DNA from: a virus
Strand: one strand, 5' to 3'
DNA: 38,640 bases
Virus record (IMG/VR): IMGVR_UViG_3300048924_000336
Location: 1-38,640 of that record
Below are positions 16,824 through 25,461 of this stretch, piece by piece. A program made the translations under genes and the position numbers. Position 1 is the stretch's first letter. Every line of letters starts with the position of its first letter. Under the pieces are notes generated by a model. It worked only from the letters and a program-made list of their open reading frames with translations. It was not told the DNA's origin and searched no databases.

Positions 16824-17765
16824 ATGCCTTCGAAGCCATTCAAGCTCGTCAAGGGCAAGAGGATTCGAGCCACACGTCTCGACGGCTGTGGCCGCCCCGT
16901 CTACGGGGAGTCCTCGGTCGCGGTCTCGAACGGTACGGTCTCGGTCGCCATGACCCTGAACACGACCGACACGGACGCGATCGAGCAGACGAACATGAAC
17001 GGGGACACCTGCGTCTCCGAGCCGGCTCAGACGAAGTTCTCGAGCTACTCGGTGGTGCTGACCTTCTGTGAGGTCGACCCCGAGCTGTTCTCGCTGCTCA
17101 CCGGTCAGCGCGTGTACCTCGACGCTGACGGCAACGCCATCGGCTTCGCGGTCAGCACGGACGTCTCGCTCGAGGACCAGGGCTACGCGCTCGAGGTCTG
17201 GGCGGGCGTCTCCGCCGGCTCCGCCTGTGACACGGAGGGCGCGCAGGGCAGCTTCGGCTATCTCCTGCTCCCCTACCTCAAGGGCGGCGTCCTCGGCGAC
17301 CACACGATCGAGAACGGCTCCATCAACTTCACGGTGTCCGGCGCAACCACGCGCGACGGCAACCGGTGGCTGTCGGGCCCGTTCAACGTCATGCTGGACG
17401 GCGACGGCGACCCGGCTCCGCTCATCACGCCGCTGCAGCCGAACGACCACGAGCTGCTCATCCAGGTGGGCGTTGCTCCCCCGGAGGCGTACGCGGGCAC
17501 GCGGCCGCTGATGGACCCGGACTCGACCCCCGTCACCGCGGTGGTTGCTGCCGAGGGCGGCTCGCCGAGCGAGGCCGACTTCACCTTCACGGGTGCGGCC
17601 GCCGACGTCCCGGTGTGGATCGACTTCGGCGACGGCACGTGGGACTACGTGGCCGACGGCACCGACGGCTCGTCGCACACCTACCTGGCGAACGGCGTCT
17701 ACACCGTGAAGGCGACGTCGAACGGGATCTGGCACACGACCACCGTCACGATCCCTTTCCCGTAG
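16824..17765 (+). CDS. Major tail protein with C-terminal PKD/Ig-like domain (313 aa)
   Basis: ATG at 16824. The tail-tube domain spans about residues 1-235: FKLVKGKRIRATRLDGCGRP, VSVAMTLNTTDTDAIEQTNMNG, YSVVLTFCEVDPELFSLLTGQRVYLD, and WLSGPFNVMLDGDGDPAPLI. A C-terminal Ig-like domain (about 240-313) contains VWIDFGDGTWDYVADGTDG and HTYLANGVYTVKATSNGIW, the PKD signature. Such Ig domains decorate tail tubes of many siphoviruses. Two codons before the stop is CCCTTTC, a -1 slippery heptamer leading into a 20-residue Gly/Tyr-rich extension. Its place before the head-tail connectors is unusual. Confidence 0.8.
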   Translation: MPSKPFKLVKGKRIRATRLDGCGRPVYGESSVAVSNGTVSVAMTLNTTDTDAIEQTNMNGDTCVSEPAQTKFSSYSVVLTFCEVDPELFSLLTGQRVYLDADGNAIGFAVSTDVSLEDQGYALEVWAGVSAGSACDTEGAQGSFGYLLLPYLKGGVLGDHTIENGSINFTVSGATTRDGNRWLSGPFNVMLDGDGDPAPLITPLQPNDHELLIQVGVAPPEAYAGTRPLMDPDSTPVTAVVAAEGGSPSEADFTFTGAAADVPVWIDFGDGTWDYVADGTDGSSHTYLANGVYTVKATSNGIWHTTTVTIPFP

Positions 17766-17821
17766 GCCCCGGCTCGGGCTACGGCTCAGGTCCCTATGGG
17801 CACGGCGCCTACGGGCACTAG
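17753..17821 (+). CDS. Predicted -1 frameshift extension of the major tail protein
   Basis: In frame 0 the codons are ATC CCT TTC CCG TAG. The heptamer C CCT TTC (17753-17759) is a textbook X_XXY_YYZ site: after slipping one base back, Pro and Phe tRNAs re-pair with CCC and TTT. The -1 frame then reads PVGPGSGYGSGPYGHGAYGH and stops at 17819-17821, giving a 332-residue product. No other gene occupies this stretch, and the Gly/Tyr-rich composition looks like real coding. A strong hairpin (17827-17862) follows the extension, though it is farther away than usual for a stimulator. Minor longer forms of tail or capsid proteins made by frameshift at the stop are known in other siphophages (for example Listeria phage PSA and SPP1). 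Confidence 0.6.
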   Translation, partial: PFPVGPGSGYGSGPYGHGAYGH

Positions 17822-17826
17822 CCCCT

Positions 17827-17862
17827 GCGGCCCCGACCTAGCTCCGAGCTAGGCGGGGCCGC
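17827..17862 (+). terminator. Strong hairpin after the major tail protein
   Basis: Stem GCGGCCCCG-(A)-CCTAGCT / AGCTAGG-CGGGGCCGC: 16 pairs with one bulged A and a three-base loop. It begins six bases after the stop of the frameshift extension, which is further support for that stop being a true end. Confidence 0.85.
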
Positions 17863-17883: not shown

Positions 17884-18120
17884 ATGGCATCTGCACCCAA
17901 GGTCACGGCGAACCCGCCCGCGGAGAACACCAACCCGTGGTACGCCGCACGCACCACGTACGACGGGCAGCTCAAGGCGCGTGCGAACGGGGCGGTCGTC
18001 ACTGACGGCACAGCGGCATCCGCCGGCGCCGTCTTCTGGGGCGTCTTCGAGGAGGGCTCTGAGCCCACGCCGCCCGACGACGGCCAGGTGCACTGGGGAT
18101 TCCGGGTGAACACGCCGTGA
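17884..18120 (+). CDS. Hypothetical small protein (78 aa)
   Basis: ATG at 17884 with GGAGGAG upstream. The N-terminus KVTANPPAENTNPWYAARTTYDGQLKARANGAVVTDG is followed by SAGAVFWGVFEEGSEP and HWGFRVNTP. No Cys, membrane segment or recognised motif. Overlaps the beta-helix gene (GTGA), so it may be its partner, for instance the attachment domain for that protein. Confidence 0.75.
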   Translation: MASAPKVTANPPAENTNPWYAARTTYDGQLKARANGAVVTDGTAASAGAVFWGVFEEGSEPTPPDDGQVHWGFRVNTP

Positions 18121-19181
18121 GTCCGCTGGTGCTGTGGGATGCCGACGCCCAGGTCTGGAACGACCTCGGCGAGGTTCCTGCACTCCTGCCGCCGACGATC
18201 ACCACCCCGGATCTCCACCCCTTCCTGCAGGGCTACGCGCCGCTGCAGTTTCTCACCGGCACCGGATCGCCTACGTGGTCCGTGGTCGGTGGCGCACTCC
18301 CTGCCGGCGTTGTCCTCGACTCATCGGGGGCCATGACCGGGGCGACGTCGGCAGGGGACACCTCTGGCACCGTGACGGTGCGCGCGACGAACTTCCTGGG
18401 CCACACCGACCAGACGTTCGCATGGACCACGTTCGCCGTGCTCGCCGCCAAGCCCGGCCCGACGAACACCGGAAACCAGGGCGGCACCGGTGGCTACGAG
18501 ACGATCGACGCCTATACGGTTACGACGCCGGGCACCGTGATCGCGAACAAGATCATCAACGGCCAGATGACGATCGCCGCGGCCAACTGCATCATCCGTG
18601 ACTGCGTCATCAACTCGGGCTACTGGGCGGCCGAGACGAAGGTCGACGCCGACGACTTCCTGATCGAGGACTGCACGATCATCACCGGCCTGAACTGCGG
18701 CCTGATGATTGCCGGCGGCTCCCGCAACGTGGTCGTGCGACGCTGCGACATCTCGCAGGCGGTCGACGGCATGAAGGTCTCCGGCGTCGGACTGCGCGTG
18801 TTCGACAACTACATCCACGACCTCGTCTACGACCCGGAGACGGACACCCACAACGACGCTATCCAGGGGTACAGCTTCTCCGAGACGCAGGTCGTGCACA
18901 ACTCGCTCGCGACGCCGGACACGGGGTGCATCTCGCTGTTCGACGGGCAGGGCAACCGTTGGAGCAACGTGCTCATCCAGGACAACTGGCTCGTGGGCGG
19001 CATCTTCCCCGCCTACCTCGGTGGCCCCGACATCTGGGGTCTGCAGTTCCTGGACAACACGATCTCCGAGTGGGGGGAGTACCCCTTCACGAGCTTCACC
19101 GCCGATCCCCCTCGTCCGCCGGGCGAGCCAGGTAACGTGATGTCCGGCAATCACGAGCCCGACGGCACCCCGATTCCATAG
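18117..19181 (+). CDS. Right-handed beta-helix protein with N-terminal Ig-like domain (354 aa)
   Basis: GTG at 18117, overlapping the previous stop. Residues about 40-115 (APLQFLTGTGSPTWSVVGGALPAGVVLDSSGAMTGATSAGDTSGTVTVRATNFLG) match a putative-Ig (cadherin-like) fold. From about residue 140 a series of coils follows, each with a V/I-x-x-C/N pattern: NCIIRDCVINSG, DFLIEDCTIITG, NVVVRRCDISQ, GLRVFDNYIHD, TQVVHNSL, NVLIQDNWLVGG and LQFLDNTISEW. This is the parallel beta-helix of pectate-lyase-like proteins. In phages such domains are tailspikes or polysaccharide-degrading or -binding proteins. Catalytic residues cannot be identified, so binding rather than cleavage is equally possible. Confidence 0.8.
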   Translation: MSPLVLWDADAQVWNDLGEVPALLPPTITTPDLHPFLQGYAPLQFLTGTGSPTWSVVGGALPAGVVLDSSGAMTGATSAGDTSGTVTVRATNFLGHTDQTFAWTTFAVLAAKPGPTNTGNQGGTGGYETIDAYTVTTPGTVIANKIINGQMTIAAANCIIRDCVINSGYWAAETKVDADDFLIEDCTIITGLNCGLMIAGGSRNVVVRRCDISQAVDGMKVSGVGLRVFDNYIHDLVYDPETDTHNDAIQGYSFSETQVVHNSLATPDTGCISLFDGQGNRWSNVLIQDNWLVGGIFPAYLGGPDIWGLQFLDNTISEWGEYPFTSFTADPPRPPGEPGNVMSGNHEPDGTPIP

Positions 19182-24703: not shown

Positions 24704-25249
24704 ATGTCCGAAGCAGATAGCCGGTCATTCCGCAGGGCCGTCGCCCGCCACTCCGAGACGGACCCGGAGGATCTTGAGGACGTCGTCACGTTCGACCTGA
24801 CGACGACGAAGGAGTTCCCCGTCTACGAGGATGGTGAGCCCGTCTTCGACGAGGATGGCGAGCAGGTGTACGAGGAGAGGGTCGTCCGCCAGGACTTCTT
24901 CACCGCGCACAAGCCGAAGATGGAGACACTGATCCTCGCGGCCGCGCGCGGAGGGCGGGTGGGCACGAACCCCGCCGAACAGCTCGCCGCCGTCCTGTCG
25001 CTGTTCCGAGCTGCGCTGCCGGAAGTCCAGATGGGCATCATCTACGACCGACTCGAGGACCCCCAGGACGAGGTTGGCCTGTACATGCTGCTCGAGGTGT
25101 TCGAGTGGCTGCAGGAGCAGTGGCAGTCTTTTCCTACCCCGCCCTCGTCCGCCTCGTCTGCACAGCCGAGGCCGACTGGCGGGCGCTCGACGGGACGTTC
25201 GCCCGGCAGGGGTTCGACCCGCTCGCAGACGGGCTCGACCGCTTCCTGA
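24704..25249 (+). CDS. Tail assembly chaperone, short form (181 aa)
   Basis: ATG at 24704 with GGAAGGAG. The protein is acidic at the N-terminus (DPEDLEDVVTFDLTTTKEFPVYEDGEPVFDEDGEQVYEER) and helical from FFTAHKPKMETLILAAARGG to YMLLEVFEWLQEQWQSF (residues about 65-143). After that, frame 0 gives only Ser/Pro/Arg/Gly-rich sequence, the look of a shadow of the -1 frame. It precedes the tape measure gene as the lambda G-type chaperone does, and helps fold the tape measure protein while the tube assembles. Confidence 0.8.
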   Translation: MSEADSRSFRRAVARHSETDPEDLEDVVTFDLTTTKEFPVYEDGEPVFDEDGEQVYEERVVRQDFFTAHKPKMETLILAAARGGRVGTNPAEQLAAVLSLFRAALPEVQMGIIYDRLEDPQDEVGLYMLLEVFEWLQEQWQSFPTPPSSASSAQPRPTGGRSTGRSPGRGSTRSQTGSTAS

Positions 25250-25458
25250 ACATCATCTACTCGCTACTGCTTCCGATGGATAGCGAGGAGTCTGGTGGGG
25301 CGGAGCGACTGGCGTTCATCGTCGACCTGAATGAGCCGCTGCCCAAGCCGGACTGGATGCTGCAGAACCCCGACGGCACCCGCAACGGCACGAGGATGGA
25401 CATCTCCGCGGAGGCGGAGATGGACCTGTTCCGTGCTGCCGCGGGCGGTGCCCAGTAG
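24704..25458 (+). CDS. Tail assembly chaperone, -1 frameshift fusion (about 251 aa)
   Basis: Around 25127-25133 the sequence CAG TCT TTT CCT allows slipping by one base on TTTT. The -1 frame then reads SYPALVRLVCTAEADWRALDGTFARQGFDPLADGLDRFLNIIYSLLLP and ends at 25456-25458. This frame has protein-like composition and no good start of its own, as in the lambda G-T arrangement that is conserved in siphoviruses. The slip site is not a classic XXXYYYZ (only the A-site codon re-pairs perfectly), so the exact position is approximate. Confidence 0.75.
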
Positions 25459-25461
25459 AGT
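25456..25461 (+). promoter_or_regulatory. Candidate -10 box overlapping a stop codon
   Basis: TAGAGT at the end of the chaperone gene, 30 bases before the tape measure start. It is one of a set of TAnnnT boxes at gene ends, but its TAG is simply the stop codon, so the evidence is weak. Confidence 0.2.

Follow-up and report, generated by a model that had tools for sequence, protein, structure and literature searches.

The tail-tube gene and its 3' junction

The window, i.e. the whole stretch of 38,640 nucleotides of the IMG/VR virus record IMGVR_UViG_3300048924_000336 that was analysed, carries a gene whose product matched the profile of PHROG 792 (major tail protein) with E=1.5e-79 and whose homologs in cluster EG Microbacterium phages bear the annotation "major tail protein" (Table 1). 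Residues ~10-217 of the structure predicted for this protein (mean pLDDT 84) could be aligned to tail tube proteins of solved structure, at Z 8.6-8.8 and over ~155-161 residues. Pfam matches to PKD at its C-terminus were weak and below cut-off, and the same region of the model gave a fold match to the PKD domains 6aem/4l9d with Z of ~9. Judged from the profile and the model, the product is a siphophage tail-tube protein with a PKD domain. The final strand of this domain stops in the model at residue 310, three residues short of the zero-frame stop, so that the tube gene ends directly behind its outer domain.

Table 1. Features of the tube gene and its 3' junction in the window, and a related peptide in three homologs
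Feature	Position	Strand	Remarks
Major tail (tube) protein gene	16824-17765	+	zero frame, 313 aa, ends ..TIPFP*
C-terminal PKD (Ig-like) domain	17517-17762	+	residues 232-313; weak Pfam matches and fold match
Slippery heptamer CCCTTTC	17753-17759	+	zero frame C CCT TTC, X XXY YYZ register; direct reading
Zero-frame stop TAG	17763-17765	+	one codon past the heptamer
-1 extension PVGPGSGYGSGPYGHGAYGH and its stop TAG (17819-17821)	17759-17821	+	open, conserved in the -1 frame
Strong hairpin	17827-17862	+	-33.6 kcal/mol, z=-5.4 against shuffles (RNA fold)
Zero-frame related peptide QG.DYGLG.FGSGAFGGV*	L024:5885-5948; L028:5909-5972; L032:5885-5908		L032 cut off after the start of the peptide

By direct reading, the last codons of the tube gene are ATC CCT TTC CCG TAG. 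Read in the -1 frame, the junction becomes CCC TTT, followed by CCC GTA GGC ... CAC TAG, and the predicted C-terminus is ..IPFPVGPGFGYGHGPYGHGPYGH for the extended product versus ..IPFP for the short form. No ATG, GTG or TTG begins the -1 extension in the window. CCT makes up only 5.2% of the Pro codons in a sample of the window genes, which speaks against a chance origin of the heptamer. The initial annotation had described a canonical -1 heptamer ahead of the TAG, a -1 frame open up to a stop ending at 17821 and a strong hairpin beginning six bases past that stop, and direct reading and RNA folding agreed with it on each of these points. It had further held that the composition of the extension is not that of random GC-rich DNA. 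In concordance with this, the 13-residue tail motif had two matches in 157,272 residues when the window and the cluster EG phage OneinaGillian were translated in all six frames, at one place in each, namely the junction, and the -1 frame bears the mark of purifying selection (see below).

The hairpin 3' of the extension starts ~67 nt from the heptamer, too far for it to be a stimulator of frameshifting. It was not called as a T-tailed terminator and is probably an end-of-transcript or processing structure; homologs without the extension, as judged by eye, also have a hairpin 3' of the tube gene. Further downstream, the gene at 18117-19181 encodes an Ig-like (He_PIG) domain together with a right-handed beta helix, and its product is a possible tail-associated depolymerase or spike.

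Distribution of the tail and selection on the -1 frame

Homologs were collected from 39 IMG/VR loci and from GenBank phages. The succession of heptamer, a single codon, stop and open -1 frame was common to 18 phage loci, comprising Microbacterium cluster EG phages, phage Hendrix and metagenomic phages, some of them with very divergent tube proteins. All cluster EG phages that were read have this layout (Phinky, RubyRalph, Fregley, Fizzles, OneinaGillian, Marcie, Pepe25, Blab, Rudy, Squash, Rowlf and SallyK), with -1 tails such as PVGPGFGYGHGPYGHGPYGH, LSPGTGLGHGPLGHGPLGNGPA and LSPGAGFGHGPFGHGPFGHGPV. Wherever the feature table of a named EG record was inspected, the tail protein was entered as one plain CDS. 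The heptamer was CCCTTTC in 16 of the 18 loci, GGGAAAA in one and an imperfect GGCTTTC in another. In each of the 18 the -1 frame was free of stops and encoded a Gly-rich extension of 20-24 residues with the core G-[Y/F/L]-G-x-G-P-[Y/F/L]-G-H-G-x-[Y/F/L]-G; K and R are absent from most of the tails. The spacing from heptamer to stop was exactly one codon in 18/18 loci, where the script that tabulated them looked for this spacing and the direct junction readings did not; the intervening codon varied (CCG, GCC, ACC, AGC, GCG), as did the stop itself (TAG, TAA, TGA). The conservation of heptamer and -1 frame among relatives, proposed as a check by the initial annotation, was thereby borne out.

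When IMG/VR was searched at the DNA level for the peptide motif, without reference to the heptamer, nine tube-protein loci turned up that share this arrangement. They include Microbacterium phage Hendrix (C CCT TTC AGC TGA), L067 (G GGA AAA GCG TAG) and L106 (imperfect G GCT TTC), the tube proteins of which are much more divergent and possess another C-terminal domain: tube protein identity was 32% for Hendrix and 39% for L067, and the L106 protein reached PHROG 792 at E=2e-12 only. A canonical heptamer was present in 8/9 of the blind-found loci versus 0/43 homologs without the tail, in which it was sought within the last six codons (Fisher p=1.2e-8, the loci being not all phylogenetically independent). 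Among 30 bacterial genome matches to the same DNA motif, none had the -1 layout. Sharkboy, the one EA-cluster phage checked, shares the C-terminal domain of Hendrix and has no tail, and tblastn with the tail peptide alone gave no matches, the query presumably having been masked as low complexity.

Seven distinct close sequences of equal length, a group not chosen by its substitutions, gave an NG86 dN/dS of 0.16 when read in the -1 frame; the zero and +1 frames gave 3.6 and 1.4, respectively. Their variable columns were distributed 2/2/11 over the three -1 codon positions. When the core alone (13 codons) was taken from 14 distinct sequences, the ratio was 0.21 in the -1 frame and 2.0 and 1.8 in the others, a contrast partly built in, as these sequences were picked by the peptide motif. 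A looser group of six longer tails had a weaker -1 ratio (0.47 vs 0.65 and 2.5). The -1 core is under purifying selection across divergent phages. Furthermore, the three aromatic/Leu positions of the core are identical within each phage, i.e. YYY, FFF or LLL (18 loci, 12 distinct peptides), and close cluster EG relatives differ at all three together, as do Rowlf (FFF) and Blab (LLL). The amino-acid conservation and this concerted variation show selection on the peptide, beyond the shift itself.

Homologs that keep the gene and lack the heptamer, which the initial annotation had named as the case that would speak against a frameshift, were indeed found in numbers; the extension was absent along with the heptamer, however, which is a pattern of gain and loss and no contradiction of frameshifting. 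On a tree of the tube domain of 54 proteins the tail was scattered, with 10 changes, at least 8 of them forced by well supported branches; L106 and L068 sat on long branches. The scatter indicates that the tail was often lost or moved, and fits an earlier suggestion that frameshift-encoded extensions spread by recombination (PMC5009743). Many close homologs are devoid of the tail (L001, L002 and L004 among them), and it is therefore dispensable to the family. The closest homolog by segment identity (86%; L004:5001-6281) has an altered C-terminal region of the tail protein, without the frameshift tail, and its sequence suggests that the gene has recombined at its 3' end.

No tube protein that was examined carried the tail other than behind the frameshift. 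On a few other phage proteins the motif occurs in frame, namely in L060 (PHROG 838), in the L104 minor tail protein and in L064, L065 and L058. This in-frame G-aromatic-G-H-G motif may be C-terminal, internal or N-terminal (L060:1263-1970, the L104 minor tail protein, L058:2003 onward), with L058 as the N-terminal case. A tail set behind a frameshift on the tube and in frame elsewhere is what would be expected if few copies per virion were wanted.

The surroundings of the heptamer were also searched for a stimulator of slippage. Pseudoknot-free RNA structures can form downstream, but their strength did not exceed that of synonymous controls (mean z ~0), and no consistent Shine-Dalgarno-like sequence was detected upstream of the heptamer. 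A hairpin right after the heptamer (CCGTAG...CTACGG) was considered and rejected, as its pairing register shifts between groups and its energies do not exceed those of synonymous shuffles; Blab and Squash have a longer version made of other bases. Heptamers made up wholly of pyrimidines, and UUY codons, rank among the motifs more prone to shifting in E. coli, and some slippery motifs shift without a stimulator (PMC4066793).

Probable programmed frameshifting and its alternatives

The comparative data make it very probable that a programmed -1 frameshift yields a minor, extended form of the tube protein, as the initial annotation had proposed for the major tail protein, and they support it as the only reading that fits all of them. 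In a share of the passages, the Pro and Phe tRNAs would slip by -1 simultaneously at C CCU UUC, and the slipped ribosomes would bypass the stop one codon on and add a 20-residue tail of the G-aromatic-G / P-aromatic-G-H type. The phage would in this way make a major tube protein plus a minor, C-terminally tagged form; we infer that slippage proceeds at a useful rate and that the tagged subunit enters the tube. The flexible Gly/Pro/aromatic/His tail would then project from the outer tip of the PKD domain and, by analogy with the role proposed for the FN3 domain of SPP1 (PMC8718954), make weak multivalent contacts, with the host envelope as the most likely partner and possibly with other parts of the virion. 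The function of the tail is unsupported by homology, and weak adhesion to the envelope of the host is a conjecture; we propose the adhesive role tentatively, as one that has appreciably less than even chances.

On a par with it, and just as compatible with the frameshift, stands a role of the extended form in assembly, where it would mark the first or the last ring or bind the tape measure or terminator and would be no surface adhesin. Minority subunits could mark the ends of the tube, and related tails do occur in frame on other tail proteins, such as the minor tail protein of L104 and the PHROG 838 protein of L060. In the model, on the other hand, the chain finishes with the PKD domain, at a site that in known tubes is situated away from the lumen and from the interfaces between rings (PMC8718954), and the many homologs without the tail presumably assemble normally. 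Assembly and adhesion are about equally open as roles of the tail.

The other readings fare much worse. The heptamer might be coincidental and the Gly-rich -1 reading an untranslated by-product of GC-rich DNA or of a terminator region: DNA rich in GGC/CCC does give G/P/R-rich frames, a GHGPYG-like string lies by chance within the hairpin of L010, and no stimulator was found. Purifying selection specific to the -1 frame over 14 distinct sequences, the fixed distance between heptamer and stop ahead of a frame that is open in every locus, and the association of the heptamer with the tail nevertheless render coincidence highly improbable. A regulatory purpose of the shift, which would slow or tune termination or act on the downstream hairpin and not serve the peptide, could draw on the strong hairpin 3' of the extension; a hairpin, however, also follows genes without extension, and conservation at the amino-acid level together with the concerted YYY/FFF/LLL variation leaves this reading with equally slight chances. 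Least probable of all are stop-codon readthrough into the tail and a tail that forms an independent small ORF, because, in spite of the related zero-frame peptide directly after the TAG in three homologs, the tail lies in the -1 frame in the 18 loci, the zero frame past the stop is unconstrained (ratio 2.0-3.6) and the extension in the window has no start codon of its own.

The three homologs in question (L024, L028 and L032) are of Arthrobacter type, and their related peptide, ..DYGLGDFGSGAFGGV, is possibly reached by stop readthrough, as its position in the sequence would allow (Table 1).

Known frameshifts in tail genes and possible meaning of a tagged subunit

Tail assembly chaperones of the lambda gpG/gpGT type are made by a -1 frameshift in the tail gene region and are routinely annotated in actinophages; the lambda GT product is absent from mature virions. 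The frameshift proposed here differs from them in that it would affect another gene; a chaperone pair of this phage lies apart from it, at about 24704-25460. In that pair, G occupies 24704-25249 and the overlapping -1 T frame about 25141-25458; no canonical X XXY YYZ heptamer was found in the G gene of the window or of OneinaGillian, and the chaperone shift site may be a G_GGN tetramer.

Closer counterparts are found among tail proteins proper. In SPP1, the major tail protein is extended by frameshifting into gp17.1*, which bears an FN3 domain, is present in a 3:1 ratio and is dispensable in the laboratory (PMC8718954). Common to both cases would be a shift where the major tail protein ends and the minor status of the longer form, and the SPP1 addition is C-terminal and directed outward; in place of a folded FN3 domain, however, the phages considered here would add a Gly/aromatic/His tail of 20-24 residues past a PKD domain borne by all subunits. 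The tail shaft protein (tsh) of Listeria phages PSA, A118 and A500 has a second product made by frameshifting at the stop codon, by +1 at CCC_UGA (PMC5009743), whereas here the shift would be -1 on C_CCU_UUC and the extension is another one. In phage A2 of Lactobacillus casei, a tail protein is lengthened by -1 frameshifting (PMC5009743), as the tube protein would be here. In distinction from the whole SPP1/PSA/A2 type, the present extension is not Ig-like or FN3 and is too short for an Ig fold. The precedents of SPP1 and PSA, invoked by the initial annotation, hence hold for frameshift-extended tail proteins in general and differ from this case in the event itself.

Frameshift-extended major tail proteins being already known, what sets this case apart is the short non-Ig tail, its wide conservation in actinophages and the concerted Y/F/L variation. 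The non-subscription literature that was searched yielded neither a report of frameshifting in these tail proteins nor a mention of the tail, and it yielded no proteomics of these phages. The conserved module G-Ar-G-x-G-P-Ar-G-H-G-x-Ar-G, with uniform Y, F or L positions and displayed at low copy on actinophage tails through a -1 shift on the tube and in frame on other tail proteins, may serve generally as a weak adhesive or as a tag for assembly, of a type undescribed so far, a view to which we accord slightly less than even chances.

Every deposited cluster EG genome inspected would accordingly miss a probable component of the virion. The role of minority frameshift-extended tube subunits is unclear for SPP1 and PSA, and Microbacterium foliorum phages, which are easy to grow, make it approachable with a peptide of ~20 residues. 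Moreover, the concerted Y/F/L changes provide natural variants for linking the chemistry of the tail to host binding.
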